Part shown: piece after piece, positions 2,360 through 57,085 of the stretch
How the letters are laid out: each line of letters starts with the position of its first letter
Position numbering within the stretch: position 1 is the first letter of the stretch
Origin: Arcicella aurantiaca
Lineage (GTDB): Bacteria; Bacteroidota; Bacteroidia; Cytophagales; Spirosomataceae
Assembly (NCBI RefSeq): GCF_003148625.1
Contig: NZ_QGGO01000006.1
Location: 186,001-250,000 of the forward strand
Length of the DNA: 64,000 nt
Direction of reading: 5' to 3'
Made by a program: the position numbers and the translations under genes
Notes under the pieces: generated by a model
What the model was told of the DNA's origin: nothing
Database searches by the model: none
The model's input: only the letters and a program-made list of their open reading frames with translations

Positions 2360-2393
2360 GGGTTGAATTAAATGCTTTTTTAGCTTGAAAATT

Positions 2394-2427
2394 AACTTCC
2401 CGAAAGTTTTAGAACTTTCGGGAAGTT
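2394..2427. repeat. Perfect 15-bp-arm hairpin (TTCCCGAAA family)
   Basis: The arms AACTTCCCGAAAGTT (2394-2408) and AACTTTCGGGAAGTT (2413-2427) are perfect reverse complements around a 4-base loop. The same arm sequence recurs near 7.2, 43.4, 52.0 and 55.9 kb. Here it lies 35 bases before the start codon of the BNR protein, inside the presumed polycistronic mRNA. A second hairpin with arms GACAGATT/AATCTGTC at 2444-2462 spans the stop codon of GH127. Confidence 0.8.
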
Positions 2428-2449
2428 CTCCCAAAAACGTTTTGACAGA

Positions 2450-4492
2450 TTAGAAATCTGTCCTACTAAGTGGCAACCAAACGCTCATTTCTGATTGTCC
2501 TCGGTTAGCCCAAGCAAAATATGGAATTAAGGTAATTTTAGTGGGTGCAGAACTTTTACTATTAATAGGTTGGTAGAGCGAATTTTTCCATTCTTTTTTA
2601 CCCAAAGTTTTTACCGTTCCATCAAGCGTCAACATTTCAGCATTGCCGATTTTACTTAATTTTGAAGTCCATTTGGTATTCGTAGGAATTGAAATAGAGC
2701 TTAGTTGTTCGTTATTTTGAAGGTCGTTTGACTCTAAACAATAAACAATTGGACCTCTTTTTACGGCTACTTGGTTTCTGGTTTCTTCTACCAATGGATT
2801 CGATTCCATCAATTGTACTTCCATCGGTAAACGTAATGATAAAACATCGCCCGCTTTCCAAATTCTTTTGATTTCCACGTATTGCCCCGAAACTACATTT
2901 GTTGTTATTTCCTTTCCATTAATTAATATTTGAGCCGAATTTGCCCAAGCAGGAATTCTTAGAAAAAAAGAATATTCAGTATTCTGTATTTTGTTGATTT
3001 TCAAGTCAATTGAGCCATTCCAAGGGTAATTTGTTACTTGTTCTAACGATAATTCTGAACCGTTTTCTAAGGTCGTATTCAATTTATTTCCCCCATAAAG
3101 ATGCACGTAAAGTCCATTATTGACTTGACTATAAAAATAATTACTTGCTTCTGCAATGGTACGCACAACGTTTGGCGGACAACAATTTGATTTACTGATA
3201 TATGTCTGACGACCGCCATTCCAACGTAATTCATACGGAAAATCATTTGAGGCACGAAGTGGATTTGTGTAAAAAAACTTATCACCTTCCAAGTTGATGC
3301 CTGACAAAATGCTATTATACAAAGCTAATTCCATGATGTCCGCATATTTGGCATCACCTGAGATTTGTAACATTCGCCAATTCCAAAGTAAATTTCCAAT
3401 ATTAGCACAAGTTTCATTATGAGCCGAATGATTGGGCAATTGAAATGCTTTTCCATAAGCCTGATGTACTTTTTGAACCGTATCAGGTTTATAAGCAGTA
3501 CCGTCTGGTGAAACACCATCATATAATGCCCCACAAGCACCTGTGATGTACATTTTGTGATTAATAACATCGTCCCAAACTAAATCAAGGGTCGAAAGCA
3601 AGGATTTATCACCTGTTTCTGCATAAATATCTGCTGCCCCTGCAAACAAATAATTGGCTCTTACGGCATGGCCAATCACCTTTTTCATTTGTCTGAAAGG
3701 CACACGGTCAGAGTTATCATCTGTGCCTTCTGTTTCGCCTCTAATGTCAATGAGTTTCTTAACTAATGCCAAATAACGTGGCTCGTTTGTAGTGCGATAC
3801 ATTTCCACAATTCCCATATAATGCGAAGGACAAATGGCATTTCGGGCTTGTTCAGGCGAAGCAGTATTATAAAAACCAATCAAAAAATCCGTTGCTTTTT
3901 TAGCAATTTCTAACAAATTTGTCTTTCCCGTAGCCCGATAATGAACGCAAGCCGCCGTCATTAAATGTCCAAAATTGTAGGCTTCAAAACTTAATTTATC
4001 ATCAAACATTTTGGGTTTATTGGTCGCTTTTTGCTCAATAATAGATTTCGTATAAATATATCCATCCTCTTTTTGTGCCTTTCCAATCACCGAAATGGCA
4101 TTATCCATAAGAACATCCAACTTTTTATCCTTAGTTTGGGCATACATACTTGCCACAGCTTCAAGGGTTTTATAGAAATCTCCATCATGAAAGGAAGGAC
4201 CTCTAAAACGACCTTTGGCTAAACCCGCAGCAACTTCAAAATTATGAAAAGCATGGCATGAAACGGTGTCATTATAACGATTCCAAAGTGTAGGAACCAT
4301 CGTATTTTTACAAACCTCAAAACGATTCGCCCAAAAACCATTTGTCCAAGAGACATTGCCCAAATCGACACTTTTTAGTTTTGCAAAATTACTTTTATTG
4401 GTGTTGGTCAAGCCTTTGTTTTGGGCTTGTATTTGACTGAAAGTCAATACTAAAACGAATAAAAAATATAACTTATTTGTTGCCCGTGTCAT
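2450..4492 (-). CDS. GH127 family beta-L-arabinofuranosidase (DUF1680)
   Basis: Exported protein of 680 residues. The start is placed at MTRATNKLYF, giving a signal peptide that ends near SQIQAQ; an upstream in-frame ATG would add a 43-residue tail without secretion features. The motif HNETCANIGN (about residue 360) and the pair of cysteines in SNCCPPN (about residue 435) correspond to the acid/base Glu and nucleophilic Cys of the zinc-dependent GH127 retaining enzymes. The length and the (alpha/alpha)6 barrel plus beta-sandwich layout fit. It removes terminal beta-L-arabinofuranose; some relatives (GH146) have similar activity, so the exact family could be either. It is followed by the BNR gene on the same strand and is divergent from the DUF5703 gene. 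Confidence 0.88.
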   Translation of the reverse strand: MTRATNKLYFLFVLVLTFSQIQAQNKGLTNTNKSNFAKLKSVDLGNVSWTNGFWANRFEVCKNTMVPTLWNRYNDTVSCHAFHNFEVAAGLAKGRFRGPSFHDGDFYKTLEAVASMYAQTKDKKLDVLMDNAISVIGKAQKEDGYIYTKSIIEQKATNKPKMFDDKLSFEAYNFGHLMTAACVHYRATGKTNLLEIAKKATDFLIGFYNTASPEQARNAICPSHYMGIVEMYRTTNEPRYLALVKKLIDIRGETEGTDDNSDRVPFRQMKKVIGHAVRANYLFAGAADIYAETGDKSLLSTLDLVWDDVINHKMYITGACGALYDGVSPDGTAYKPDTVQKVHQAYGKAFQLPNHSAHNETCANIGNLLWNWRMLQISGDAKYADIMELALYNSILSGINLEGDKFFYTNPLRASNDFPYELRWNGGRQTYISKSNCCPPNVVRTIAEASNYFYSQVNNGLYVHLYGGNKLNTTLENGSELSLEQVTNYPWNGSIDLKINKIQNTEYSFFLRIPAWANSAQILINGKEITTNVVSGQYVEIKRIWKAGDVLSLRLPMEVQLMESNPLVEETRNQVAVKRGPIVYCLESNDLQNNEQLSSISIPTNTKWTSKLSKIGNAEMLTLDGTVKTLGKKEWKNSLYQPINSKSSAPTKITLIPYFAWANRGQSEMSVWLPLSRTDF

Positions 4493-4832
4493 TGTGATTG
4501 AAGACTTAGTTCGTCTATTTATATAAAATCTTATCATTGTTTCTACAAAGGTAGTGGGAAGTGCAAGTTTTTTTTTGTACCATTTTTTCAATGTTTTATA
4601 CCATTTTGTCTTTGTGTTCAAATTAGAAAATCTAATTAAAATAAGAATATTATCAGAAAAATATCTTTAAAAGCCTGTTTTTTGCAATTTGAAAGAATAA
4701 AATGCTGGAATAAGTCATTCTGAAATGTTATCCAACTTATGATAATATTGTATGAACTTGAAATTGTATCGTAATTTCGAGAGATTTTAAAAGTAGAATT
4801 ATACGTGTACATTAGACATAAATTATCTAAAC

Positions 4833-7160
4833 ATGAAAAAAACGCAACATTCAATTATTGGTATCATTTTGCTTTGCCTATATTCTATTTGTGCATTCAC
4901 ACAGAATAATATTGATGATTGCAATATTACTTGGAAAAGTCAAAGCAAAAATTCCAGCGAGTCAATGCCTTGTGGTGGGGGAGATATTGGTTTAAATGTG
5001 TGGGTAGAAAATGGCAATTTATTGTTCTATATGGCTCGTAGTGGCACTTTTGATAATAATAATTCAGTGTTAAAATTGGGCAGAGTTCGGGTTAAACTTT
5101 CGCCAAATCCTTTTGAAAATAGCGATTCTTTTAGTCAAACACTGGTTTTAAAAGATGGAAACGTAGTCATAAAAGGGAAAAAGGATAAACTTGAATCAGC
5201 GATAAAGATTTGGGTTGATGTTTTTCATCCAATTATTCATGTGGAAGTTGAGAGTAATCAGCAAACAAAAATGAAGGTTGCTTACGAAAATTGGCGTTTT
5301 GAAGACCGCATTTTAAAAGGAAAAGAGAATAATCAAAATTCTTATAAATGGGCTCCACAAGGAATCGTAAAAACTCGGAAAGATAGTATTCGTTTTGAAA
5401 ACAATAATTTGATTTTTTTCCACCAAAATGCTGATGAACAGTCTGCTTTTGATGTAACCGTAAAACAACAAGGTTTAGATTCACTTAAAGAAAAACTATA
5501 CAATCCTATCAAGCATTTAATATTTGGTGGTTTTATAGATGTTCAAAATTGTGTTGCTTCTGGAACGTCTTTGGGTAAATATCAAGATACAGATTTTAAA
5601 GCTTGGAATTTTGAAAGCAAACAAAAAAGTAAATCGCACGAAATCAATATTTATTTACAAACCGAAAAAACTGAAAAGTTAGAAAGTTGGGCTAATGAAC
5701 TACAAAAACTCATTATTGATAATCAAAAATCGAAAGAAGCCAATAAAATAAATACACAAAATTGGTGGAAAAACTTTTGGGAAAAAAGCTTTATTTATAT
5801 CAATTCAGCATCTCAGAAAAACACAACAACTTGGCAAGTTGGAAGAAATTATCAGTTATTTCGTTATCAATTAGCGTGTAATGCTTTTGGAAAATATCCT
5901 ACAAAATTTAACGGTGGATTATTTACAGTTGACCCAATTTTTACAGACTCTACCTTAAAATTTACACCTGATTTTAGAAATTGGGGTGGTGGTACGCATA
6001 CCGCCCAAAATCAGCGATTGGTTTATTGGGGAATGTTGAAGTCGGGAGATATTGAAATGATGAAACCACAGTTTGATTTTTATCAGAATATCTTAAAAAA
6101 TGCCGAATTAAGAACGGAGTTTTATTGGAAACACAAAGGTGCATCTTTTACAGAACAGATAGAAAATTTTGGTTTGCCAAATCCCGCAGAATATGGTTGG
6201 AAACGCCCAAAAGACTACGACAAAGGCATGGAATACAATGCTTGGTTGGAATATGAATGGGATACGGTTTTGGAATTTTGTTTGATGATGCTCGAAACTG
6301 AACGATTTGAAGGAAAAAACATTCAATCATACATTCCTTTTATAGAAAGTTGCCTGACTTTTTTTGATGAACATTATCAATATTTAGCGAAAAATAGAGG
6401 AAGCAAAGCACTCGATGGCGACAAACACTTGATTTTATACCCAAGTTCGGGAGCAGAAACCTACAAAATGGCATATAATTCTACCTCAACAATTACAGGT
6501 TTACAAACAGTTTTAAGCAGATTATTAGCTTTGCCAAATGGCTATTTATCCCAAGAAAAAAGAGAGCAATGGGAGGGAATGTTAAAAAGAATTCCACCGA
6601 TAAATTTTAGAACTTTTGAAGGAAAAACAACCATTTCGCCTGCCAAACATTGGGAAAGAATCAATAATTCAGAGTGTCCACAATTGTATCCTGTTTTTCC
6701 TTGGGGAATGTATGGAATTGGTAAAGCAGGTTTAGATACTGCCATCAATACTTATTTATATGACGCTGATGCTCTGAGATTTAGAAGTCATATTGGTTGG
6801 AAACAAGATAATATTTTTGCGGCAAGGTTGGGTCTAACTGACGAAGCAAGTCGATTAACTTTATTGAAATTACAAGATTCTCCACGTCGTTTTCCAACGT
6901 TTTGGGGACCGGGTTATGACTGGACTCCCGACCATAATTGGGGCGGTTCGGGCATGATTGGTTTGCAAGAAATGTTGTTGCAAACGGATGATAAAAAAAT
7001 CTATCTTTTCCCTGCGTGGGATAAAACTTGGGACGTTCATTTCAAACTTCATGCTCCATATCAAACAACAGTTGAAGGCATTTTGAAAAATGGGAAAGTA
7101 GAATCGTTGATTGTTACGCCTTCAAGTAGGCAAAAAGATGTGGTGTTGATGTTGAAATAA
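4833..7160 (+). CDS. DUF5703-type glycoside-hydrolase-like protein
   Basis: Exported protein of 775 residues with a signal peptide ending near CAFTQ. The N-terminal region (about 25-280) begins DDCNITWKSQSKNSSESMP and continues CGGGDIGLNVWVENG, the pattern of the DUF5703 beta-sandwich of Bacteroidota. The remainder (about 300-770) is Trp-rich and helical, like the (alpha/alpha)6 barrels that follow this domain. Motifs worth noting are FGLPNPAEYGW, YPSSGAETYKMAYNSTS and FWGPGYDWTPDHNWGG. It is the only plus-strand gene in the first locus and is divergent from GH127 across about 340 bases, which must hold both promoters. The function is unproven; a glycosidase acting on a plant side chain is likely from context. 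Confidence 0.75.
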   Translation: MKKTQHSIIGIILLCLYSICAFTQNNIDDCNITWKSQSKNSSESMPCGGGDIGLNVWVENGNLLFYMARSGTFDNNNSVLKLGRVRVKLSPNPFENSDSFSQTLVLKDGNVVIKGKKDKLESAIKIWVDVFHPIIHVEVESNQQTKMKVAYENWRFEDRILKGKENNQNSYKWAPQGIVKTRKDSIRFENNNLIFFHQNADEQSAFDVTVKQQGLDSLKEKLYNPIKHLIFGGFIDVQNCVASGTSLGKYQDTDFKAWNFESKQKSKSHEINIYLQTEKTEKLESWANELQKLIIDNQKSKEANKINTQNWWKNFWEKSFIYINSASQKNTTTWQVGRNYQLFRYQLACNAFGKYPTKFNGGLFTVDPIFTDSTLKFTPDFRNWGGGTHTAQNQRLVYWGMLKSGDIEMMKPQFDFYQNILKNAELRTEFYWKHKGASFTEQIENFGLPNPAEYGWKRPKDYDKGMEYNAWLEYEWDTVLEFCLMMLETERFEGKNIQSYIPFIESCLTFFDEHYQYLAKNRGSKALDGDKHLILYPSSGAETYKMAYNSTSTITGLQTVLSRLLALPNGYLSQEKREQWEGMLKRIPPINFRTFEGKTTISPAKHWERINNSECPQLYPVFPWGMYGIGKAGLDTAINTYLYDADALRFRSHIGWKQDNIFAARLGLTDEASRLTLLKLQDSPRRFPTFWGPGYDWTPDHNWGGSGMIGLQEMLLQTDDKKIYLFPAWDKTWDVHFKLHAPYQTTVEGILKNGKVESLIVTPSSRQKDVVLMLK

Positions 7161-7170
7161 ATTAAGCATA

Positions 7171-7232
7171 CAACTTCCCGAAATAACTCCGTTATGAGTT
7201 AAACCCAAAATGGATATTGTTTCGGGAAGTTG
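7171..7232. repeat. Stem-loop repeat, TTCCCGAAA family
   Basis: CAACTTCCCGAAA (7171-7183) pairs perfectly with TTTCGGGAAGTTG (7220-7232). The interior contains AATGGATATTG, the core found in the copies near 43.4, 52.0 and 55.9 kb. It lies just after the DUF5703 gene and no outer arms are evident. Confidence 0.75.
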
Positions 7233-7261
7233 CTCAATCAAAATAAATTAAAAATTATTTA

Positions 7262-7430
7262 CGGAACTATCAACTATTTGTCGCAGACAAATTTAGACCA
7301 CAGATTGAACGGATTTTACAGATTTACACTGTGACACACAGTCTGGGACTCACAGTCAGATAAAATAAAGAAAAATCAGCGAAAATCAGTACAATCCGTT
7401 TCATCTGTGGTCTATCCATTTATAGTTCCG
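7262..7430. repeat. Long inverted-repeat element, CACAGATT family, copy 1
   Basis: The outer arms CGGAACTAT (7262-7270) and ATAGTTCCG (7422-7430) enclose inner arms that pair over most of 70 bases, including GACCACAGATTGAACGGATT on the left against the reverse complement of AATCCGTTTCATCTGTGGTC on the right. The centre contains small ACTGTGA/TCACAGT palindromes. It fills the gap between the convergent DUF5703 and GH35-like genes and could act as a bidirectional terminator. Related copies lie near 43.6 and 61.7 kb. Confidence 0.8.
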
Positions 7431-7431
7431 A

Positions 7432-9066
7432 TTATTTATACGTATAAAGTTGAAGTTTTTGAATTTCATAATCACCAACCGAAATGCGTAAATGTCTGCC
7501 TTGATGAATTTGGTCGCCATTCATGTGACGAAGGGTTTTCCAAACATTGTTTTCAAAATAACCTTCATCAACTTTCAAAATACCCACATTTAAGGCTGGA
7601 TTTTCTAACGATTTAAACGTAACCACTATGCCAGAACCAGTTACATAAAACTCATTTTCACCTGTTTGAATAATGATGGCACTTGTCATAGGCCATTCTG
7701 CTGATTTTGCTTCGGGCGACCAACCCAATGTATAATCATGACGAAAAGTGAATTGATATTTTCCTAAATTAACGACAGTTTCTTTGTTTTCATGGTCTAA
7801 TAAAACCGCTTCAATCTTGCCTTGTCCATGATTTTTGACAAGCAAAGGCGTTATTTGTTCCAACAAAGCATAGCTTTTTCCCAAAGGTTCGTTTTGTGGT
7901 TTTTCTGGAGATTCAATTGAAAATGGAGAAAAACCCAAAGCCTCATAATGTCCGATGGCGTACAAAGATTTTGCCATTACGGTATTATCAAAACGGTGTT
8001 CTGGAATAAATAAAGTTTCTCCGTGACGGGTATATAAATCATTCCAATGCTTGAAATCAGGGTTATAAAAATCGGGAGAAAGTAAATCCATTGAAGGCAT
8101 AGCAGCTTTCCAAAGGTCAATGACGTGTGGGAGAGGCCCTGCACTCGGATAACCACTTCCCGGAAGTTTATTTGGTCGGTTGAGTGCGGCATTTACAAAC
8201 ATTGGAATTGGATAGATTTTCTTGCCTGCTTCGGTAATGGTGTTGGTGTATTTGGCAAAATACCAAGCCATAAATAATTCGTCCGTTGCTAAACTTTTCC
8301 CAAAAACTTCTTCCCAATTTCCACTATTTTTAAAACCATTTTGTCCCCATCTAACCAAAATTTCGGGGGCTAATGTTGCTTGATTTTTCTTTAAATAATC
8401 CATCAAAACTGATGGTACATTACTTTTAAAAGCCTCATTTGCTAATGAATGATAATCACGAGCAGAAGGCAACATTCCAATTTCATTCTCAACTTGAACC
8501 ATGATAACGGTCTGTTCATTTTTATCAAAATCTTTGATAAATGCCATTAGTTTTTCAAATGCTTTCAAATCGGCTTGAAGATTGTTTTCGCTAAAAGGCG
8601 TTAAAATTTCCTGACTTTGGTTTTTGTCATCTTTCGCTCTTGGAAATCTTTCTTGATTAAGTTTTACCCAAGCAGGTACATGGCTCGACATACTATTTTT
8701 CCATGATGCAAACCAAAGAAAAACAATTTTAATCTGATTTTTGCGAGCTTCCGTAATCAGTTGTTGCAGTAAAAGATAGTCAAATTTGCCTTCCTCTTTT
8801 TCAAGTAATTCCCAATAAACAGGCACTAAAACGGTGTTGAGGTGCATTGCTTTGAGTTTTCCCCAAATTGGTTGCATATATTCAATGGTTGATGCTGAGG
8901 AATTTCCTAACTCTCCACCAAGAATAATCATTGGTTTGCCATTCACAATCAATTGGGTGGTTTTCCCTTTTTTCTCGAGATGAGGTAATTGATTTTGGGC
9001 AAAATTTGTTTGCTGAAAAGCTACAAAGAGAAGAATCAGAATGAGATTTTTTGGAGAAATTTTCAT
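7432..9066 (-). CDS. GH35-like beta-galactosidase with DUF5597 C-terminal domain
   Basis: Exported protein of about 544 residues with a signal peptide ending near TNFAQ; the start at MKISPKNL is preferred over an ATG three codons upstream. The TIM-barrel N-terminus has LGGELGNSSAS and QVENEIGM (about residues 188-195), where the Glu after Asn is the expected acid/base. The C-terminal 140 residues fit the DUF5597 beta-sandwich found in this group. It likely removes terminal beta-galactose from a hemicellulose side chain. It sits downstream of GH10 on the same strand with a 100-base gap, consistent with one operon. Substrate specificity is inferred from family and context only. Confidence 0.82.
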   Translation of the reverse strand: MKISPKNLILILLFVAFQQTNFAQNQLPHLEKKGKTTQLIVNGKPMIILGGELGNSSASTIEYMQPIWGKLKAMHLNTVLVPVYWELLEKEEGKFDYLLLQQLITEARKNQIKIVFLWFASWKNSMSSHVPAWVKLNQERFPRAKDDKNQSQEILTPFSENNLQADLKAFEKLMAFIKDFDKNEQTVIMVQVENEIGMLPSARDYHSLANEAFKSNVPSVLMDYLKKNQATLAPEILVRWGQNGFKNSGNWEEVFGKSLATDELFMAWYFAKYTNTITEAGKKIYPIPMFVNAALNRPNKLPGSGYPSAGPLPHVIDLWKAAMPSMDLLSPDFYNPDFKHWNDLYTRHGETLFIPEHRFDNTVMAKSLYAIGHYEALGFSPFSIESPEKPQNEPLGKSYALLEQITPLLVKNHGQGKIEAVLLDHENKETVVNLGKYQFTFRHDYTLGWSPEAKSAEWPMTSAIIIQTGENEFYVTGSGIVVTFKSLENPALNVGILKVDEGYFENNVWKTLRHMNGDQIHQGRHLRISVGDYEIQKLQLYTYK

Positions 9067-9166
9067 TAAAATCAATGCTTTTTATGAGGAATTGCGATAA
9101 ATAATTTGGACTTTAATTTGTCCAACAAATGAACAAACTAAAGTCCGTTTTACTAATTGAAAATGA

Positions 9167-42104: not shown

Positions 42105-43295
42105 TTACTTTTTGCCTTTTAAAGTCTCAAACTCTAATGCTAACATGATAAATGGCCCTACCGATTTGGGGTCATTATCTCTTTTTACTTCTTTGCAATA
42201 ATATTCGTAGCTTCCATCTCTGTACGGATTTCCACCCAAACCAGCTCCCGCACAAGCATCTGTGATGCTAATCTTTTGGTCAGATTCTACCCGAATAAAG
42301 TGCTTTAAAATTCCTGCATAGCCTTTTTGTGCAGTTTGGATGTATTCTGGCTGAATATATTTTCTTTTACCTGCTTTTATCAAAAAATAGACAAACATAG
42401 TAGATGCCGACGATTCCAGATAGTTTTCTGGTTGTTTGCCAACGTCCATCACTTGATACCACAGTCCTGAAGAAGAATCTTGATATTTTTTAAGTGTTTG
42501 AGCCATTTCTTGAGTTATTTTCAAAATGGTTTTGTATTGTGGATGTTCCTTCGGAAAATAATCAAGCACATCAACCAATGCCATAGCGTACCAACCCATG
42601 CCACGCCCCCAAACATGAGCCGATTTGCCTGTTTGTTTATCAGCCCAACGTTGTTCTTTGCTTTCGTCCCAACCATGATGATAAAGCCCAGTTTCGAGAT
42701 TTTTATTATGCTTATCAATCAAAATAATCTGATTCGCAATATCTGAAAACAATTCTGGCTCATTAAAAACCTTAGCGTATTGTGCCAAAAAGGGCGTTCC
42801 CATGTATAAACCGTCTAACCACATTTGATGCGGATAATGTTTTTTATGCCAAAAACCACCTTCTGAAGTTCTTGGATGCGTTAGCATTTGGCTACGTAAC
42901 AATTTGATGGCTTTTTCATATTTTGCCTCATGTGTTTTTTCATAAATGGCAAAAAGAAATTTTCCTGCATTGAGAGCATCAATATTGTAGGCATCAACTT
43001 TATACGTTTTGATACTTCCATCTTCATTGATGAGGTCGTCAGCGTATTTTTTTATGTAATTGTAATATTTTTCATTTCCCGATTGTCTCCAAAGTTGTTC
43101 GAGAGAACTACAAACTAAACCATTACAATAACCCCAGCGAGGGTCTTTTGAAAAATCAAGCATCCAACCTTCTGGATTTCTTAGAATATCCGAATCCGCC
43201 ATTCTGACAGACCAAGACTCTTTAGATTTTGTAGCAAATGCCAAAGTACAAATCAGTACTATAATGGCAGAACATTTAACGAAAATTGTTTTCAT
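42105..43295 (-). CDS. GH105/GH88-family unsaturated glucuronyl or galacturonyl hydrolase
   Basis: 396 residues, start at MKTIFVKCSA with a signal peptide ending near TLAFA. The (alpha/alpha)6 barrel shows MWLDGLYMGTPFLAQYA (catalytic Asp about 159), HVWGRGMGWYAMALVDVLDY and DACAGAGLGG. These enzymes hydrate the double bond left by pectate or rhamnogalacturonan lyases and release the unsaturated sugar acid. It follows susD of the third locus on the same strand, separated by 380 bases packed with three stem-loops. It is the best clue that this locus targets pectin. Confidence 0.88.
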   Translation of the reverse strand: MKTIFVKCSAIIVLICTLAFATKSKESWSVRMADSDILRNPEGWMLDFSKDPRWGYCNGLVCSSLEQLWRQSGNEKYYNYIKKYADDLINEDGSIKTYKVDAYNIDALNAGKFLFAIYEKTHEAKYEKAIKLLRSQMLTHPRTSEGGFWHKKHYPHQMWLDGLYMGTPFLAQYAKVFNEPELFSDIANQIILIDKHNKNLETGLYHHGWDESKEQRWADKQTGKSAHVWGRGMGWYAMALVDVLDYFPKEHPQYKTILKITQEMAQTLKKYQDSSSGLWYQVMDVGKQPENYLESSASTMFVYFLIKAGKRKYIQPEYIQTAQKGYAGILKHFIRVESDQKISITDACAGAGLGGNPYRDGSYEYYCKEVKRDNDPKSVGPFIMLALEFETLKGKK

Positions 43296-43330
43296 AAAAT
43301 ACATAATTTTTAATTACCACATCATTGAGT

Positions 43331-43440
43331 AATGTTTAATAAGTTTCTTCAACTTCCCGAAAGTTCTTTACCCGCAATGGATATTGTTTCGGGAAGTTCT
43401 ACAAGATTTTGGGATAAAAATTATCCAGATATACTAATAA
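43331..43440. repeat. TTCCCGAAA family element, copy with partial ends
   Basis: AACTTCCCGAAA (43353-43364) pairs with TTTCGGGAAGTT (43389-43400) around the core TTTACCCGCAATGGATATTG. The left flank TAATGTTTAATAAGTTTCTT and right flank TCTACAAGATTTTGG then ATAAAAATTATCCAGATA are shared with the copy near 52.0 kb. It is upstream of GH105. Confidence 0.8.
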
Positions 43441-43472
43441 TACTAACCCAAGCCCAACTTAATTAAGAAAAT

Positions 43473-43502
43473 ATCCCTTGAGATTTTAATTTCTCAAGGG
43501 AT
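43473..43502. terminator. Perfect hairpin downstream of susD
   Basis: ATCCCTTGAGA (43473-43483) and TCTCAAGGGAT (43492-43502) are perfect inverted repeats. On the minus strand it is followed by ATTTTCTTAATT. It could end the susC/susD transcript or protect its 3' end. Confidence 0.6.
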
Positions 43503-43545
43503 TGTTAAATAGATTTGAGGTTTAATGTTTTGGAGCAATAAAGGG

Positions 43546-43666
43546 TTTGTCAGAAGACAAATGATAGCTCACAGATTAAACAGATTTTTGCATTCTATCT
43601 GTGTAAACCTCTGTAAAATCAGTTCAATCTGTGGGCTAAATTTGTCTGGGACAAATAGCTGATAGT
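43546..43666. repeat. Inverted-repeat element, CACAGATT family, copy 2
   Basis: The left half reads TTTGTC...GACAAATGATAG then CTCACAGATTAAACAGATTT; the right half, reverse-complemented, reads CTATTTGTCCCAGACAAATT then CCCACAGATTGAACTGATTT. It lies ten bases downstream of the susD stop, so it could act as a terminator or 3' stabiliser. Confidence 0.75.
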
Positions 43667-43675
43667 TTAAATATT

Positions 43676-45325
43676 TTATTGATAACCAGCGTTTTGCGTA
43701 AATTCTGCTTTGTTGGTTACGGCATCTAATTGAGACTGTGGAATTGGTCGTAAAACGTGGTAACTACTCAAGTTTATAGCATTATCTGGAGCATAAGCTT
43801 TAATTCTTTCTACTAACTTTCCAGTACGTTTAAGGTCAAACCATCTCAATTGTTCTCCTGCTAACTCACGAGCCCTTTCATCAAGAATAAAATCCAATGT
43901 TACCTGTGCAGGCGAAATTTGCATTGCCGCAGCTTTTCCAGTTTTAGCGGCTCTTGTACGTAAAACATTGATATAAGTGGCAGCATCAGTATTATTACCC
44001 AATTTCATTTGTGCTTCAGCGGCTATTAGATATACTTCAGCCAAGCGAATCACAAATACATCTCTGGCACTTTGAGCTTCGTTCAAACTTGCCCGAGTAG
44101 CATCCATAAATTTTGATAATGAGGGGTAACGTTGATTATCTTTTACTGTTCCGTTGGCATTAAATATTTTGCTTCTATCATAAATTTGATATTTACGAGT
44201 GGCTTCAAAAGCATCAGGAATTTCTTTTCCTGTACAATAAACGGCAGTATCTCCAATGCTCATTCCTGTTGGACGGGTGGTTGCATTTGCCTTCCAAATT
44301 TGCTGAAAAGAAGCATCATATCGAGCATCATTTTCATCAAATAAATCTAACAAATAACGAGTAGGCATATAACGCACGAATGGTCGTCCGTTGGTAATAT
44401 CTCGAAGCATTCCCGGTCTGTCGTCATATTTCATAATAAAAAGCAAATGCCCATTATTACTGCCTCTACCATGCCCATAAGGGTTAAATGTGCTATTCAC
44501 AAGGTCGTTCAATGCCAAATTGGTAGAATAGTCAACCACATAAATGGCTTCTTTATTTTTGAGATTAGTCATTTTCCACAAATCGGCATAGTTAGCTTCC
44601 AATTTATAGCCATAATTTCCATTCAAAACTGCTTGTGCCATCTCCAAAGCCTCTTTATTCATTCCTCTTGTGAGGTAAATTCGAGCTAAAAATGCCTGAG
44701 AAGCCCCTTTGGTAACTTTTCCGTATTGAGTTTGAGTAGCAGGTAAATTGGCTGTGGCAAACTTTAAATCTTCAATGATTTGTTTGTAAATAATTTCTTC
44801 AGAAGTACGATTTGCCGTTGAGATTATTCCATTAGTTTCTTGGGTAGTAAAATGTACGCCACCCCAAGTTTCTACGATGTGCCAATAGTAAAATGCTCTT
44901 AAAAATTTAAGTTCAGCTTCTCTAACAGGTCTTAATGTTGCTGATAATCCTGCATTTTCAATGCGTTTAATTCCAGCATTACAAAGATTGATGGCTGCAT
45001 AAAATTCACGCCATTCAGTTGTTAAGGCAGAATTACTCCCTTGCAAATTCAGATATTGGGTTAAATCTCGGTAAACTTCCCCCGAACCACTCGTCCAAAT
45101 ATCAGTACCTGTTTCAGCAATATTGTATCCTTCTTCTTTTCCGTACCACCATCTTTGATAACTATATGCTGCATTTACCAGCGTTTCAAAACCTTCTGGC
45201 GTTGAATAAACGGATTCTGCTGTTAAGCCACTTGGGTTATACTCTGTCAAAACATCATTGCATGAAAAGCATGATATTGTGAGTAAACCAATGGCGATTT
45301 TTTTAATAGAAACTATATTTTTCAT
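43676..45325 (-). CDS. SusD/RagB-family glycan-binding lipoprotein
   Basis: 549 residues with a lipoprotein signal (ISCFSCNDVLTEY; the modified Cys is probably the second, followed by Asn-Asp). LKFLRAFYYWHIVETWGGV and the C-terminal LDERARELAGEQLRWFDLKR identify the family. It lies 17 bases downstream of susC. Its architecture matches the SusD of the first locus more closely than that of the second. Confidence 0.94.
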   Translation of the reverse strand: MKNIVSIKKIAIGLLTISCFSCNDVLTEYNPSGLTAESVYSTPEGFETLVNAAYSYQRWWYGKEEGYNIAETGTDIWTSGSGEVYRDLTQYLNLQGSNSALTTEWREFYAAINLCNAGIKRIENAGLSATLRPVREAELKFLRAFYYWHIVETWGGVHFTTQETNGIISTANRTSEEIIYKQIIEDLKFATANLPATQTQYGKVTKGASQAFLARIYLTRGMNKEALEMAQAVLNGNYGYKLEANYADLWKMTNLKNKEAIYVVDYSTNLALNDLVNSTFNPYGHGRGSNNGHLLFIMKYDDRPGMLRDITNGRPFVRYMPTRYLLDLFDENDARYDASFQQIWKANATTRPTGMSIGDTAVYCTGKEIPDAFEATRKYQIYDRSKIFNANGTVKDNQRYPSLSKFMDATRASLNEAQSARDVFVIRLAEVYLIAAEAQMKLGNNTDAATYINVLRTRAAKTGKAAAMQISPAQVTLDFILDERARELAGEQLRWFDLKRTGKLVERIKAYAPDNAINLSSYHVLRPIPQSQLDAVTNKAEFTQNAGYQ

Positions 45326-50909: not shown

Positions 50910-51797
50910 TTAATTCAACATTCGGTATTCGTTGGGAGTAAGTCCTACTTTTTGTTTAAATAGACGACTAAAATGTTGTGGATACTTAAATCCTAATTGA
51001 TAGGATATTTCACTGAGGGATTTTGATGTATCTAAAACTCGCTCTTTGGCAAGGTCTAATAATCGTAATTGGATATATTCTAAGGCTGTTTTTCCTGTTT
51101 CTTTCTTAATTAAATCTCCAAAATAATTAGACGATAAATTCAATTTATCTGCAAAGTAAGATACTGAGGGCAAGCCTTTTACTGATAATTCTTGACTAAA
51201 AAGATAGTCAGTCAGCGAAGTGTCAAATTGTTCAATAATGCCTTTATGTGCTTCTTCACGGGTTATAAATTGACGGTCGTAAAATCTTGAAAAATATTTA
51301 AGTAGTAATTCTAAATTGGCAATAATCAACTTCTTGCTGTGTTTATCAATATTTTGATTTATTTCTGTTGCAATATTTTCAAAACAATTAAGAATCACCT
51401 CTTTTTCTCTCTCAGAAACGTGCAAAGATTCATTTACCTGATAACTAAAAAAAGTATAGTCGTGGATACTTTTTCCTAAACTTGTGCCTTTAATGAGGTC
51501 TGGGTGAAAAACCAAAGCTTTTCCATAAGGTTGATGTATTTCACCTTCTGGCTCGTGCGTGATAATTTGCCCGGGGGCAAAAAAGACTATTGTACCTTCT
51601 TCATAATCATAATATTTATTGCCATATCGTAATTCTCCGCATTTAGTTTCCTTGATAATTATGGCATAAATATTCATCTTCGCCTTTGTTTTAGCAATTG
51701 GGTCAGACTTCCCCAAGTCCACAAAATTAATTAATGGATGAAGCGTCGTGTTGTTAAATGTTTGGCTATAATGTTTTATTGTATCGTAAATTATCAT
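50910..51797 (-). CDS. AraC-family transcriptional regulator
   Basis: 295 residues from MIIYDTIKHY; an ATG eight codons upstream is also possible. The N-terminal cupin-like domain (about 1-170; DYEEGTIVFFAPGQIITHEP) is followed by two helix-turn-helices (about 200-295; PSVSYFADKLNLSSNYFGDL and LSEISYQLGFKYPQHFSRLF). It belongs to the kind often divergent from oxidoreductase genes and would control the outer-membrane protein and molybdenum hydroxylase genes on the other strand. Confidence 0.92.
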   Translation of the reverse strand: MIIYDTIKHYSQTFNNTTLHPLINFVDLGKSDPIAKTKAKMNIYAIIIKETKCGELRYGNKYYDYEEGTIVFFAPGQIITHEPEGEIHQPYGKALVFHPDLIKGTSLGKSIHDYTFFSYQVNESLHVSEREKEVILNCFENIATEINQNIDKHSKKLIIANLELLLKYFSRFYDRQFITREEAHKGIIEQFDTSLTDYLFSQELSVKGLPSVSYFADKLNLSSNYFGDLIKKETGKTALEYIQLRLLDLAKERVLDTSKSLSEISYQLGFKYPQHFSRLFKQKVGLTPNEYRMLN

Positions 51798-51940
51798 GGC
51801 AGTAGTGGTTTTGATTTTCAAGATTTACCGAAATTATCAAAGAATTGATAGCTTATAATACTTACCTGTAAAAATGGTTAGTAAAACCGTAAAATTGATA
51901 AAATATCATCGCTCATTCTTTCCTAATTTTGGAACTTTAA

Positions 51941-52108
51941 TGTAGTGTTTAATAAGTTTCTTCAACTTCCCGAAACAATATCCATTGCGGGTAAAAAAAC
52001 TTTCGGGAAGTGAACCTCTCGACTACTTCCCGAAAGTTCTTTCTACTTTCGGGAAGTTCTACAAGATTTTGGAATAAAAATTATCCAGATAACTAATTAA
52101 ACAGTGTA
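51941..52108. repeat. TTCCCGAAA family element with two tandem hairpins and terminal inverted repeats
   Basis: Ends TGTAGTGTTTAATAAG (51941-51956) and ATTAAACAGTGTA (52096-52108) are imperfect inverted repeats. Inside are two hairpins, AACTTCCCGAAA...TTTCGGGAAGT enclosing CAATATCCATTGCGGGTA, and ACTTCCCGAAAGT...ACTTTCGGGAAGT. The stretch after the second hairpin is almost identical over 45 bases to that after the copy near 43.4 kb. It occupies half of the divergent gap between AraC and the barrel protein. Confidence 0.82.
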
Positions 52109-52164
52109 TTCAATGCTTAAATTCAAAAATCTGCCCAATCAGATTTATTATTCCAAAAACATTT

Positions 52165-52929
52165 ATGAATTATCTCAAATTATCAATCATTATTTCTTCA
52201 TTATTTTTAACACAACTATCTTATGGACAACAAGATACGACCAATTTAGTTAGTAGTTTTAGCGGCTCTGTTGGCATTACTAACAATGGATTTTCAATCA
52301 TTCCTACTTTCTCGTTAAATAGCCCTGCGGCAATTATGAATTTTACGTGGAAGAAAAAACGTTTTAGCTTTAATCCTGATATTCGCTTGGTAACAGATGC
52401 CAGTAAAGGAGGTTTTATTTTTTGGCTAAGATACCAAGCAATTCAAGCAAAAAAGTTTGGTTTGCGTGTGAGTGCTCACCCTGCTCTTAGCTTAGTGCGA
52501 AAAACGATAATTGACAACGGAAGTTCCATAGAAATTACTGAAATGTTACGTTTTTTGGCTTATGAGATTGTTCCAAGCTATCAAATTACGCCAAATTGGA
52601 ATGTAAGTGCAGTTTATTTACAAGGTCATGGCTTACAAAATCATGGACCACAATTAACAAGAGCATTTTTTGTAAATACCAGTATTTCAGATATTAAAAT
52701 TGGAGGCGATTTCAGATTTCAAATTACGCCATCCTATTATTACTTATATACTGACAGCTACACAGGTAACTATTTGGCTGTAACCGCAGGAATTTCCAAA
52801 AAAGGAAGTCCTTTTGCGATACAATCAACTATCAATCAAACATTTGACTCAAACATACCTAACAATAAAGACTTTATGTGGAACGCCATGTTAAGTTATA
52901 ATTTCAGTAGAAATTTGAAAAGAATTTAA
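52165..52929 (+). CDS. Predicted outer-membrane beta-barrel protein
   Basis: 254 residues with a signal peptide ending QLSYGQ. The rest alternates hydrophobic and polar residues in strand-like segments (FIFWLRYQAIQAKKFGLRV, AVTAGISKKGSPFAIQSTI) and ends LSYNFSRNLKRI, suggesting a small barrel. I recognise no named family. It lies upstream of the second molybdenum hydroxylase on the same strand and is divergent from an AraC regulator, so it may be a porin-like entry route for that pathway's substrate. Confidence 0.6.
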   Translation: MNYLKLSIIISSLFLTQLSYGQQDTTNLVSSFSGSVGITNNGFSIIPTFSLNSPAAIMNFTWKKKRFSFNPDIRLVTDASKGGFIFWLRYQAIQAKKFGLRVSAHPALSLVRKTIIDNGSSIEITEMLRFLAYEIVPSYQITPNWNVSAVYLQGHGLQNHGPQLTRAFFVNTSISDIKIGGDFRFQITPSYYYLYTDSYTGNYLAVTAGISKKGSPFAIQSTINQTFDSNIPNNKDFMWNAMLSYNFSRNLKRI

Positions 52930-52972
52930 ACATATTTAATGATAAGTAGGCGTTTGGATTTAGTTGTTGGGC

Positions 52973-52999
52973 ATTAGTGTTGGAACTCACTATTAATCA
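52973..52999. repeat. 27-base repeat shared with 18251-18277
   Basis: Begins ATTAGTGTTGGAACTC and ends TATTAATCA; differs from the copy near 18.25 kb at three positions. It lies between the barrel protein and the Fe-S subunit gene. GAGGAATGCCTC, a small palindrome, follows about 20 bases later. Confidence 0.55.
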
Positions 53000-53066
53000 G
53001 AATATTGCAACATAATCTGAGGAATGCCTCGTCTAATTCTTAACGAATACTTATAAAACTTAATCA

Positions 53067-53543
53067 ATGACAAAATATACACTCACCATCAACGGCAAAA
53101 AAACACAAGTTGAAGCCGAACCAGACACCCCAATGCTTTGGGTAATTCGTGATTATGTTGGACTAAAAGGTACAAAATTTGGATGTGGAATGGGCTTGTG
53201 CGGAGCTTGCACGATTCATCTTGACGGTCAGGCGATTCGTTCATGTCAAACGCCAATTTCATCGGTAAAAGCCACCAATAAAATTACAACGATTGAAGGT
53301 ATTTCCGCAGGAATTAATATTGACCATGTTGTTCAAAAAGCATGGATAGAAGAACAAGTGCCACAATGCGGTTATTGTCAGTCGGGACAAATTATGTCGG
53401 CGGTTGCCTTATTGAAATCAAATCCAAACCCAACTGATGACGATATTGACACTTTTATGTCAGGAAATATTTGTCGCTGTGGTACTTACGTTCGTATTCG
53501 TAAAGCCATTCATTCGGCAGCAAGCGAAATGAAGAAAAAATAA
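53067..53543 (+). CDS. [2Fe-2S] subunit of a second molybdenum hydroxylase
   Basis: 158 residues. Cys40, Cys45, Cys48, Cys60 and Cys101, Cys104, Cys136, Cys138 provide the two clusters ([37 protein letters not shown]). It is closely similar to the protein at 25762-26217 but has a longer linker (INIDHVV) and a Lys-rich end. Its partner starts 56 bases downstream. Confidence 0.92.
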
Positions 53544-53599
53544 TCAACCGTCAAACGTAGTAATGTTCAACGAAACATACTACAAAACCGAAATTCAAC

Positions 53600-55786
53600 A
53601 TGGAAAAAAATAATATCAACCGTCGTAATTTCTTACGATTTACGGGTATATCGGGAATGGCATTTGTTTTAGGAATCTCTCATTCATCCGCAAGCATAGA
53701 AAAAACACTGATTGAGCCAACCGAAGCCTCAACTTTGCTCCTAAGTCAGCCTTTTAATTTTACTCCGTACATCATTATTGAAAATACTGGAAAAATCACG
53801 CTTTATAATTCAAAACCTGAAATCGGACAAGGCACGTACCAATCCATTCCAGCTTTGATTGCCGAAGAATTGGAAATTTCTCCAGAACAATACACCGTTT
53901 TACAAACGAACGGAGAAATCAAATTTGGAGGAGCTCAATTTGCAGGTGGAAGTATGTCAGTACGAATGAGTTACACCGAAATGCGTAAGGCAGGTGCAAC
54001 CGCAAAAGAAATGTTACTTACCGCTGCCAGCCAACAATGGAATGTGCCTGTTTCGGAATGTTTTGCAGAAAAAGCTCAGATTATTCATAAGCCAAGCGGC
54101 AAAAAATTGGGTTACGGAGCATTAGTGGAAACTGCTTCAAAATTGGAAGTACCCAAAAATCCAACGCTAAAAGAAGCAAAAGACTTCAAAATTTTAGGCA
54201 AATCTGTAAAACGCCAAGACGTTCCCCTAAAAGTGAAAGGTCAAGCCATTTTTGGAATTGACGCAGAACTTCCCAACATGGTTTATGCTTCCGTTGAGCG
54301 TTGTCCTGTTTTTGGAGCAACACTTAAAGACTATGACAAAACTGCCACTTTAAAAATAGCAGGCGTGCAAGAGGTTTTGGAAGTAGAAAGAGTTTTTGGA
54401 GTTTATAAATCTGTTGGAGTTGCGGTTGTTGCCAAAAACTATTGGGCTGCCTTACAAGGACGTAAAGCCTTAAAAGTTAATTGGAATTATCAAGGAAAAG
54501 ACACCTTCAATTCGCAAGAATATACAAAATCTTTGCATGAATTATCTAAAAAAGAAGGCGTGATTGACGCAAATGTGGGCAATTTTGAAGAGAGTTTTGG
54601 AAGTGCTTCTAAAAAACTTGAAGCATTTTACGAAACTCCTTTTGTGTCGCATTCGCCCATGGAAGCGATGAATTGTACTGCCTTTTGGAATGCTGAAAAC
54701 AAACTCGACATTTGGACTTCCACGCAAGTACCTTCTGACGTAATGCGTGAAATACCTACTCGTTTCGGAATTAAAGCAGAAGATGTAACGCTTCATACAA
54801 ATTTTAGTGGGGGAGGTTTTGGACGTAGATTAGCCATTGATTTTATCATTGAAGCGGTCAATTTGGCAAAAGCCATCAAGAAACCTGTTAAATTAATTTG
54901 GACACGTGAAGACGATACTCAATTAGGGCCTTTCCGTCCGCCTACCTTTTCGGCAATGAAAGGAGCAGTTGGTTCAGACGGTAAATTAATTGCTTTTCAA
55001 CATAAAGTGATTTCACCTACTATCATGTCATTTTTGAACCCTAACAATGATAAAACAAAGCTTGATGGAACGATGACGGAAGGAATTAGTCATCAGAAAT
55101 ATGAAATTCCTAACATGAAAAATCTATTTGTTTATTCAGATATTCATGTGCCAATGTTTTGGTGGCGTTCTGTTACAAGTTCAACTTTAGCGTTTTCACA
55201 TGAATGTTTTATAGACGAATTGGCACATAGTGCAGGAAAAGACCCGATGGTGTTTCGTTTAGAAATGCTCACGAAGGATTCAGATACCAAACGTCTTTTA
55301 CAAAAACTGAAAGAGGTTTCTAAATGGGATTCAGCTCTACCAAAAGGCAAAGGACGTGGCGTGGCACAATGGGAATTTTTTGCAGGTTTAGGAGGTCATG
55401 TTGTTGAGGTTTCTAAATTATCCGACAATTCAGTTAAAATTGAAAAAATTTATGCAGTCATTGACTTAGGAACAGTCGTAAATCCTGATACAGTAAAAGC
55501 ACAAATGGAAGGTGCAATCGTGATGGCAATTACCGCTGCTATCAAGAATGGAATAACTTTCGCAGGCGGAAAAGCTGAACAAAGCAATTTTCATGACAAC
55601 CCTGTTTTACGAATCAATGAAGTACCCAAAATAGAAGTACATATTTTGGCAGAAGGTGGCAAAGAAATAAAAGGAGTTGGCGAACCGGGTTTACCACCTG
55701 TTGCCCCAGCTTTGGCAAATGCCATTTTTGCCGCAACGGGCAAACGTGTACGCAAAATGCCTTTTGATATTGATAAGTTGGTTTAA
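53600..55786 (+). CDS. Molybdopterin-binding large subunit of a second molybdenum hydroxylase
   Basis: 728 residues with a twin-arginine signal (NRRNFLRFTGISGMA). Motifs include KPEIGQGTYQSIPALIAEEL, FSGGGFGRRLAIDF, IHVPMFWWRSVTSS and the C-terminal GVGEPGLPPVAPALANAIF with the catalytic Glu. The MFWWRSV motif differs from GAFRAPRSN in the paralogue at 26230-28485, so the two probably take different substrates. With the alcohol dehydrogenase downstream it suggests stepwise oxidation of an alcohol or aldehyde in the periplasm and cytoplasm; that order is inference. Confidence 0.9.
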   Translation: MEKNNINRRNFLRFTGISGMAFVLGISHSSASIEKTLIEPTEASTLLLSQPFNFTPYIIIENTGKITLYNSKPEIGQGTYQSIPALIAEELEISPEQYTVLQTNGEIKFGGAQFAGGSMSVRMSYTEMRKAGATAKEMLLTAASQQWNVPVSECFAEKAQIIHKPSGKKLGYGALVETASKLEVPKNPTLKEAKDFKILGKSVKRQDVPLKVKGQAIFGIDAELPNMVYASVERCPVFGATLKDYDKTATLKIAGVQEVLEVERVFGVYKSVGVAVVAKNYWAALQGRKALKVNWNYQGKDTFNSQEYTKSLHELSKKEGVIDANVGNFEESFGSASKKLEAFYETPFVSHSPMEAMNCTAFWNAENKLDIWTSTQVPSDVMREIPTRFGIKAEDVTLHTNFSGGGFGRRLAIDFIIEAVNLAKAIKKPVKLIWTREDDTQLGPFRPPTFSAMKGAVGSDGKLIAFQHKVISPTIMSFLNPNNDKTKLDGTMTEGISHQKYEIPNMKNLFVYSDIHVPMFWWRSVTSSTLAFSHECFIDELAHSAGKDPMVFRLEMLTKDSDTKRLLQKLKEVSKWDSALPKGKGRGVAQWEFFAGLGGHVVEVSKLSDNSVKIEKIYAVIDLGTVVNPDTVKAQMEGAIVMAITAAIKNGITFAGGKAEQSNFHDNPVLRINEVPKIEVHILAEGGKEIKGVGEPGLPPVAPALANAIFAATGKRVRKMPFDIDKLV

Positions 55787-55833
55787 TTTAACAGATTAAA
55801 AATCTGAAAAGAAAATTTATAAAAGCATTTAAG

Positions 55834-56011
55834 TACAGTGTTTTATAAGTTATTTCAACTTCCCGAAACAATATCCATTGCGGGTAAATAACTTTCGGGA
55901 AGGGACATTGATGTTTTATACTTCTCGAAAGTTATTTACCCGCAATGGATATTGTTTCGAGAAGTTCTTTCGAATAATTAAGCTTCCCCAAAAAACGTAT
56001 TAAACACTGTA
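55834..56011. repeat. Best-preserved TTCCCGAAA element: 178 bp with terminal inverted repeats and 5-bp flanking direct repeats
   Basis: Ends TACAGTGTTTTATA (from 55834) and TATTAAACACTGTA (to 56011) are inverted repeats. TTAAG occurs immediately outside both ends (55829-55833 and 56012-56016). Inside, a unit at 55859-55902 is repeated inverted at 55921-55964; each unit is itself a hairpin, with CCCG/CGGG arms in the first and CTCG/CGAG in the second. It ends 19 bases before the alcohol dehydrogenase start. Confidence 0.85.
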
Positions 56012-56029
56012 TTAAGTTTAAACAAAAAC

Positions 56030-57085
56030 ATGAAAACACAAATTGTAAAAGCATTTGGAACAGATGCACCAACAGACGATTTAAAACAAATGGACATCCA
56101 ACGCAGAGAAGTTACTGCTAATGATGTGGAAATTGACATTTTATACTGTGGCGTTTGTCACTCAGATATTCATACGGCTCGAAATGAATGGCCGGGAACG
56201 ATTTATCCTAATGTTCCAGGGCATGAAATTGTAGGTAGGGTCACAAATGTAGGGAATCTTGTAACGAAATTTAAAGTTGGAGATTTAGCAGCAGTAGGCT
56301 GTATGGTGGATAGTTGTAGAACTTGCGAAAGTTGCCAAGAAGGTTTGGAAAACTATTGCGAAAAAGGCATGACAGGAACGTACAATTCTTCTGATAAACA
56401 CTTAGGTACACACACATTTGGCGGTTATTCTGAAAAAGTTGTGGTAGATGAAAATTACGTTTTGAGTGTACCCGAAAATTTAGATTTAGCAGCCACTGCA
56501 CCCTTATTATGTGCAGGAATTACTACGTACTCGCCCCTCAGACATTGGAACGTTGGCGAAGGTAAAAAAGTGGGAATTGTTGGTATCGGCGGTTTAGGAC
56601 ACATGGGGGTAAAATTAGCCAAAGCAATGGGGGCTTATGTAGTGGTAATCACTACTTCTGCTTCAAAAATTGAAGATGCTAAACGATTAGGAGCAGACGA
56701 AGTTATTCTATCAACAGATAAATCTCAAATGAAAAGCAATGCTCGAACACTACACTTTATCTTAGATTGCGTTTCTGCTCAGCATGACATCAACGCTTAT
56801 TTAAGTTTATTGAAAAGAGACGGACAATTAACTCTTGTAGGAGCTCCAGTAGATGCTCTGCCAGTTGCTCCATTTAGTTTAATTCCTGCACGCAAAAGTT
56901 TTTCAGGCTCTATGATTGGAGGAATTGCTGAAACACAAGAAATGTTAGATTTCTGTGGTAAACATAATATTACTTCCGACATTGAACTTATTGATATGCA
57001 AGACATTAACAACGCTTATGAACGTATGTTGAAAGGCGATGTAAAATATCGTTTTGTGATTGATATGGCGTCATTGAAAAAATAA
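56030..57085 (+). CDS. Zinc-dependent NAD(P)-linked alcohol dehydrogenase (cinnamyl-alcohol dehydrogenase type)
   Basis: 351 residues. Catalytic zinc site CGVCHSDIH (about 40-48) and GHEIVG (about 64-69), structural zinc cysteines in SCRTCESCQEGLENYC, and the nucleotide-binding GIGGLGHMGVKLAKAMGA (about 187-204) are all present. The family (YahK/AdhC-like) reduces aldehydes with NADPH or oxidises alcohols. It follows the second molybdenum hydroxylase but is separated from it by a complete repeat element, so it may have its own promoter. Confidence 0.93.
   Translation: MKTQIVKAFGTDAPTDDLKQMDIQRREVTANDVEIDILYCGVCHSDIHTARNEWPGTIYPNVPGHEIVGRVTNVGNLVTKFKVGDLAAVGCMVDSCRTCESCQEGLENYCEKGMTGTYNSSDKHLGTHTFGGYSEKVVVDENYVLSVPENLDLAATAPLLCAGITTYSPLRHWNVGEGKKVGIVGIGGLGHMGVKLAKAMGAYVVVITTSASKIEDAKRLGADEVILSTDKSQMKSNARTLHFILDCVSAQHDINAYLSLLKRDGQLTLVGAPVDALPVAPFSLIPARKSFSGSMIGGIAETQEMLDFCGKHNITSDIELIDMQDINNAYERMLKGDVKYRFVIDMASLKK

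Follow-up and report, generated by a model that had tools for sequence, protein, structure and literature searches.

Among the described repeats closest to the one analysed here, the GTAG-tagged REPs, BIMEs and REPINs that go with RAYT genes are palindromes of 20–40 bp, present singly or as inverted pairs, located mostly 3' of genes and with a tyrosine transposase gene adjoining (PMC3733652). REPs are considered to rely on a dedicated and stably maintained RAYT (PMC6006769). A further group, subclass 2.6 of the TnpA-REP proteins (RAYT group 5), occurs mostly in Bacteroidetes beside "atypical secondary structures" that are described as lacking GTAG and as having copies elsewhere; its members carry the motifs NH[LIV]H, WQ and YIH[QN]NP, with a median HUH-to-Tyr distance of 82 (PMC6006769). 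In Pseudomonas putida and P. fluorescens, GTAG-1 units together with unrelated stem-loops constitute the terminal inverted repeats (TIRs) of transposase genes (PMC3733652), and the NEMIS, RUP and ERIC elements are short and intergenic, with TIRs and a strong secondary structure (PMC3733652).

The hairpin found in Arcicella aurantiaca resembles the GTAG REPs in its size, its single or inverted paired arrangement, its location and its adjoining tyrosine transposase gene but, unlike them, it is untagged and occurs flanked by MITE ends of several kinds. The joining of REP units to unrelated repeats, in hundreds of copies, recalls the Pseudomonas GTAG-1 units, although the Pseudomonas repeats flank a tyrosine transposase gene and the outer repeats of the present element are MITE ends accompanied by target duplications. 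Similarly, the whole element is short, intergenic, strongly folded and bounded by TIRs, as NEMIS, RUP and ERIC are, whereas its core is a REP-type hairpin common to elements with other ends. No account of one REP family as the core of several MITE families was found in the open PMC literature. The novelty of the present analysis lies in several MITE families having captured one and the same REP hairpin; movement of the hairpin by its RAYT is presumed. Altogether, the element is best read as a composite of two mobile systems, with a MITE outside and a REPIN-like inverted pair of hairpins from a REP/RAYT system inside, a reading to which we assign a probability of roughly 0.78.

The window, that is, the whole stretch of 64,000 nucleotides that was analysed, contains this 178-bp element at positions 55834–56011 (no strand assigned), between the genes for a molybdopterin-binding protein (53600–55786) and a zinc alcohol dehydrogenase (56030–57085); the transporter, hydrolase or regulator neighbours given in an initial annotation of this DNA were wrong for this copy. 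Its TIRs are 22 nt long and match at 86% (left, 55834–55855, plus strand; right, 55990–56011, minus strand; family consensus TACA[C/G]TGTTTAATAAGTT), and the target-site duplication TTAAG adjoins them on the left (55829–55833) and on the right (56012–56016); the same annotation had placed both features, at 55829–56016, exactly, base for base. Inside, a REP-like hairpin in its long-loop form (hairpin 1, 55857–55902, plus strand) is joined by a linker (55903–55920, plus strand) to hairpin 2 (55921–55966, minus strand), which is hairpin 1 inverted, and the two constitute an inner inverted repeat of 46 nt with 96% match. The predicted fold of the element reaches −84.2 kcal/mol, compared with a shuffle mean of −30.2 (z −13.6). 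A search of the own genome (G000, a draft of 5.93 Mb in 70 contigs, with the window at 186001–250000 of contig C6) with the 178-bp query returned 75 matches, in which palindromic parts count on both strands, and the window is without any match in Rfam. With its inverted ends, and with a 5-bp target duplication that recurs in the family, 55834–56011 is a genuine MITE, designated here MITE-A.

The own genome has 67 places with ends of this type (TACACTGTTTAATAAGTT, up to one mismatch), against none for the control, and such ends occur in 11 of the 222 genomes of the family Spirosomataceae. Five genomes of the own genus account for 151 of the 162 end places, against 5 places in total for the reversed control; the places listed for inspection are the first of each genome. 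Fifty-seven distinct two-ended copies were collected from the own genus and from genera g29 and g55, 63–233 bp long and with consensus ends. Identical 5-bp flanks surround 32 of the 57 (mean for shuffled flanks, 3.25), and flanks of other lengths are identical in two copies (k = 4) or in none (k = 6). The target is the palindrome YTWAR, whose T and A are invariant throughout the 32 duplications when these are read on both strands. The TTCCCGAAA hairpin, or a close half-site variant, lies inside 51 of the 57 copies; it is absent from the other six, four of which nevertheless have the duplication, and several copies of this kind have other palindromic or repetitive cores. Cores of this kind between MITE-A ends were observed at L228, L230 (G006), L233 (G004), L215 and L218 (G196), and include another long palindrome and CGCAGAT-type repeats.

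An autonomous partner with MITE-A ends was searched for among the unpaired ends, the pairs of ends 1.6 kb and 2 kb apart and the first places listed for each genome, and none was found there; likewise, none of the 10 ORFs scanned near the window copies encodes a transposase. The earlier proposal is supported in that the element is non-autonomous, its ends are consistent, it has target duplications and no helper adjoins it. On inspection, the unpaired ends in the own genome turned out either to be MITE-like or to be due to an IS inserted in a MITE. The tail of an IS4/IS701-like transposase on contig C60 was rejected as a helper since this IS has its own ends (TCAATACTWCGCTACGA); it apparently landed in a MITE-A end, the two halves probably being represented by contigs C20 and C60. 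Copies of this IS are found at several contig ends (L059 1–361, on C60; L036, C20:1–800; C45; C35), and the one apparently located in a MITE-A end is flanked by duplicated ACTTA. In genome G004, a 1.63-kb pair of MITE ends encloses an IS110 inserted within a hairpin, and the 2-kb pair in G005 belongs to two MITE-like copies that enclose ordinary genes. Several MITE-A copies in G004, and one in G006, have the IS110 at one fixed point of the hairpin (CTTTCGAG^; L214, G004:C296; L222; L224–L227); REPs in other bacteria are likewise IS targets (PMC3733652). Among viral sequences, the MITE end occurs in three stretches and the hairpin in two.

The hairpin is also found on its own. Its unit comprises 33 bp, A[A/C]CTTCCCGAAAGTT-N3-AACTTTCGGGAAG[T/G]T, and its stem ends sharply. 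In the own genome the half-site AACTTCCCGAAA occurs 104 + 102 times, against 3 + 0 for the reversed control, and the full pattern 53 times (control, 0). Seven of the 8 genus genomes contain the full pattern, as do 12 of 59 relatives, the own genome included (control 1 + 1, in G005), and 2 of 395 genomes of a phylum sample, again including the own. A scan of genome contigs yielded at least 97 stretches with the hairpin; all titles among the matches listed belong to Bacteroidota, from Saprospiraceae, Siphonobacter, Runella, Spirosoma, Chitinophagaceae and other groups, in addition to some genus-mates. Boundaries and gene context were evaluated on 99 hairpins from the 97 stretches listed. The loop has 3 nt in 80 of them and 4 nt in 16. 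The pair immediately outside the searched core covaries, being paired in 89 hairpins compared with 53.8 expected (A-T 67, C-G 17, T-A 3, G-C 2); one position further out A-T occurs in 89 of 99, and two positions beyond the covarying pair pairing falls below chance (13 of 99, with 25.2 expected). The flanks of the bare hairpins listed exhibit no clear excess of direct repeats or target duplications. GTAG adjoins 1 of the 198 unit ends and CGTC none of them, and neither serves as a tag (the count covered these two motifs); an orientation search also revealed no strong tag, the information being 6.31 where 20 shuffles, run with fewer restarts, reached at most 6.18. The TTCCCGAAA stem-loop is an independent repeat unit, and the view that its copies form one transposon family is not supported.

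The hairpins are unevenly placed with respect to genes. With a simple ORF caller, 12 of the 99 fell inside called ORFs and 11 were without a neighbour, and 76 were classified: 29 lie between convergent genes (18% expected, p 5e-5) and only 6 between divergent ones (23% expected, p 9e-4), and the median distance to the nearest stop codon is 33 bp versus 78 expected. Bare hairpins are mostly found 3' of genes in scattered Bacteroidota. These figures also suit an explanation in which the hairpin is a strong, often bidirectional terminator carried by MITEs as an insulator, the likeness across genomes results from selection and the RAYT neighbours are incidental. However, a 3' bias is seen for REPs as well (PMC3733652), and T-tracts (at least 5 T in the 8 nt past the unit) follow 17 of 198 ends, compared with 22 and 18 further out, so that no tract is apparent; moreover, a terminator scan of 51700–56200 reported none of the hairpins located there, and an identical core with a patchy presence across the phylum sample fits copying better than structural selection. 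Since the T-tract is absent, a canonical terminator role is unlikely, and we regard the explanation as a whole as improbable. For a REP-type repeat, the placement fits insertion being tolerated at gene ends, as described for REPs (PMC3733652).

The own genome encodes an intact RAYT of 206 aa (G000:C35:19907–20527, minus strand), with an array of hairpin variants upstream and none downstream. This array and the window element have in common the long-loop hairpin and the linker sequence GTTTTATA, and positions 55886–55968 of the window align with part of the array at 89% over 85 columns. A MITE-A end was looked for at this locus and none was found. An N run interrupts the array (L351 3852–4286, on C35) and could stem from a gap in the assembly of repeats or from masking. 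Against NCBIfam REP_Tyr_transpos the protein scores E 3.2e-18 and 66 bits (cut-off 80), and among solved structures, with E up to 1, it matches only 4er8 (TnpA-REP; E 6.1e-7). By motif, its catalytic residues are H59 and H61 of the HUH motif and Y142. The link to a Y1 enzyme first looked negative: PF01797 retrieved 7 own genes, all of them more than 1.5 kb from any hairpin half-site, and missed the RAYT because the relative at L348 scores below the Pfam cut-off (19.3 versus 23 bits). The route to the gene led from an own Y1 protein to L169 by tblastn, from L169 to L348 and L314, and from L348 back to the own locus (L017).

In three loci, one from a genus-mate and two from other genera, hairpins lie on both sides of the RAYT gene. 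At L169, a MAG of Chitinophagaceae, a Y1-type gene with one stop is located between two exact hairpins at 55 bp and 17 bp. The RAYT at L348 (genus-mate G002) is intact and accompanied by an exact hairpin at 2558–2591 and a stem-mismatched one at 1725–1758, and that at L314 (G187, another genus) is frameshifted, with an exact hairpin on one side, the only one in G187, and a mismatched one opposite. Two of the four RAYT genes are hence broken (L169 by its stop, L314 by its frameshift), and all four loci were reached from hairpin-bearing loci, so they do not constitute an unbiased sample of RAYT genes. With the L169 gene as query, 2 of 40 further hairpin loci contain it, namely L348 and L314; the 40 were taken from 48 hairpins counted in other genomes, and 15 of them repeat loci of the contig scan. 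A RAYT-like gene is absent from the other 96 contig-scan stretches listed and from the other 38 loci. Altogether, three RAYT loci occur among 124 distinct hairpins listed from other genomes, compared with 0.05 expected for two neighbours per hairpin and an assumed 5000 genes per genome (p ~2e-5). The own RAYT is 77.6% identical to that of G002, and its locus is probably inherited vertically, since it is collinear in both genomes, the flanking genes having 84% and 78% DNA identity. On the strength of these neighbourhoods, the hairpin appears to belong to a REP/RAYT system, in which the enzyme would act on the hairpins.

As judged from its sequence, the own RAYT resembles the Bacteroidetes subclass without a GTAG tag. 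The phylum, the NHIH motif, the HUH-to-Tyr distance (81 versus a median of 82), the lack of GTAG, the gene-side hairpins and the copies elsewhere in the genome all agree with subclass 2.6 (PMC6006769). Unlike that subclass as described (PMC6006769), it has F at the W position of WQ and a tyrosine motif YIHANP, in place of YIH[QN]NP, and its hairpin has a strong stem where a weaker structure is reported. The motif YIHANP is common to the own copy and L348, L169 has YIHNNP (past its stop) and L371 has YIHQNP. The last, a 41%-identical relative on a plasmid of Aureibacter tunicatorum, has no hairpin of the TTCCCGAAA type beside the gene. A different untagged palindrome, AACCCAAGGGTT/AAACCTTGGGTT, lies about 100 bp downstream of it (L371 2191–2214) and could be a REP of its own or a terminator. 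On the window's own contig, a weak RAYT match of 37 aa (43%, E 0.001; L367 4470–4580, about C6:124570–124680) is located about 2 kb from a hairpin and is perhaps a relic.

The surroundings of the hairpin vary within the own genome. Out of 100 distinct hairpin blocks collected, 54 have matching ends of one family within 160 bp, compared with 15 of 2000 random window positions, and they fall into five families: A (32), C (7), B (6), D (6) and E (3). Another 29 have one end (background, 338 of 2000), two have ends of two families and 15, some of them decayed MITEs, have no end. The share of family A is inflated, since 46 own-genome loci were obtained via the MITE-A query. Family B duplicates 4 bp, as found in 7 of 10 rows against 2.0 expected, two of the ten (both L283) looking spurious; because family A duplicates 5 bp, the two families probably use different enzymes. 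A 3-bp duplication for family E is weak (6 of 14 rows, 2.3 expected), and the end patterns of C and D caught spurious rows, hence no duplication length was used for them; consequently, it is less sure that families C–E are MITEs. At L243, an E element is nested within a MITE-A end.

These counts bear directly on the initial annotation, which had assigned all TTCCCGAAA copies to one classic MITE family, the hairpin being that family's own internal stem-loop. Its recognition of a transposon with TIRs and duplications stands, and the presence of the hairpin or a close half-site variant in nearly all two-ended MITE-A copies (51 of 57) would agree with a single family. Nevertheless, such a family is contradicted by the count of five end pairs, since the identical hairpin lies between ends B–E and also occurs bare, two of the window copies among those without MITE-A ends; in addition, MITE-A ends enclose unrelated cores in G004, G006 and G196, and hairpins surround RAYT genes, the own RAYT locus being without a MITE-A end. 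We consider this explanation highly improbable. In a variant of it, the hairpin would be an ancestral part of one MITE family whose ends either drifted apart or were swapped through recombination at the shared hairpin, and there would be no REP/RAYT activity at present. Chimeric and half-hairpin elements do exist: at L280, a MITE-A left end and a C right end are joined through a single hairpin arm, and families B and D have half-hairpin copies, from which we infer that hairpin arms also act as recombination points. Family A is, furthermore, the commonest (32 of 54), though sampling favours it. However, the different duplications of A and B point to different enzymes, hairpins without ends, some of them decayed MITEs, make up 15 of 100 blocks of the own genome and are also found in other genera, and the RAYT association speaks against this variant as well. 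This variant is unlikely, if somewhat less so than a terminator carried by MITEs.

Returning to the composite of a MITE and a REP/RAYT repeat, the outer part would be mobilized by a predicted DDE-type transposase that cuts the TACA[C/G]TGTTTAATAAGTT ends and pastes them into YTWAR, duplicating 5 bp; ends and duplications are observed features, to which this enzyme class and a past movement are ascribed. For the inner part, the RAYT, as an HUH-tyrosine enzyme, would act on single-stranded DNA, cutting and rejoining the hairpins so that they spread with no duplication of the target, a process suggested by the gene with its catalytic motifs, the adjoining array and the hairpins on both sides in three genomes. 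Some hairpin copies may then have entered MITEs, whose transposases would have spread them with 4- or 5-bp duplications, an order of events (RAYT copying before MITE entry) that is itself presumed, and the hairpins would settle or survive chiefly at the 3' ends of genes. That MITEs also carry hairpins around is suggested by the five end pairs, at least two of which have their own duplication length. More tentatively, and with somewhat less than even odds, the hairpin may lead a double life: an HUH RAYT would spread bare palindromes, five or more DDE-type MITE families would have been colonised and, thus, unrelated transposases would disperse the hairpin within this genome and perhaps also among Bacteroidota; hairpin-bearing MITEs may even out-compete others, through less harmful insertion at gene ends or a foldback that aids mobilisation. 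Should MITEs that rely on independent transposases be able to take up REPs, a REP family could persist after the loss of its RAYT and would have another way of passing between species; patchy REP distributions would then be easier to explain. For the untagged REPs of Bacteroidota, of which few descriptions exist, the locus also provides a concrete case of gene and hairpin, and it cautions that a hairpin in common does not by itself make repeats one transposon family.

The four further window sites once listed as related copies are of different kinds. That at 51941–52108 is the same MITE, with two hairpins, flanks TTTAA/TTCAA and ends with 2 and 1 mismatches. The site at 43331–43440 looks like a decayed MITE-A copy, in which a hairpin (43351–43398) remains and the ends no longer match. 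The other two have no MITE-A ends: a long-loop hairpin at 7171–7232 and a bare 34-bp unit with a 4-nt loop at 2394–2427. No relative with both neighbours of the focal copy adjacent was found, and in G002 the gene upstream of it is present and followed by a different gene. For the 51941–52108 copy, the expected absence in a relative was found in G005, where no element separates the flanking gene pair and the two genes are some 190 bp nearer to each other; this is a single site in one relative, with a gap too diverged for a base-exact empty site. The window sites other than the focal one adjoin genes for glycoside hydrolases, SusD, DUF5703 and an AraC-type regulator, and stretches 524–9075 and 42105–45325 contain polysaccharide-use genes (GH127, sialidase-like, GH35-type, GH88 and SusD).
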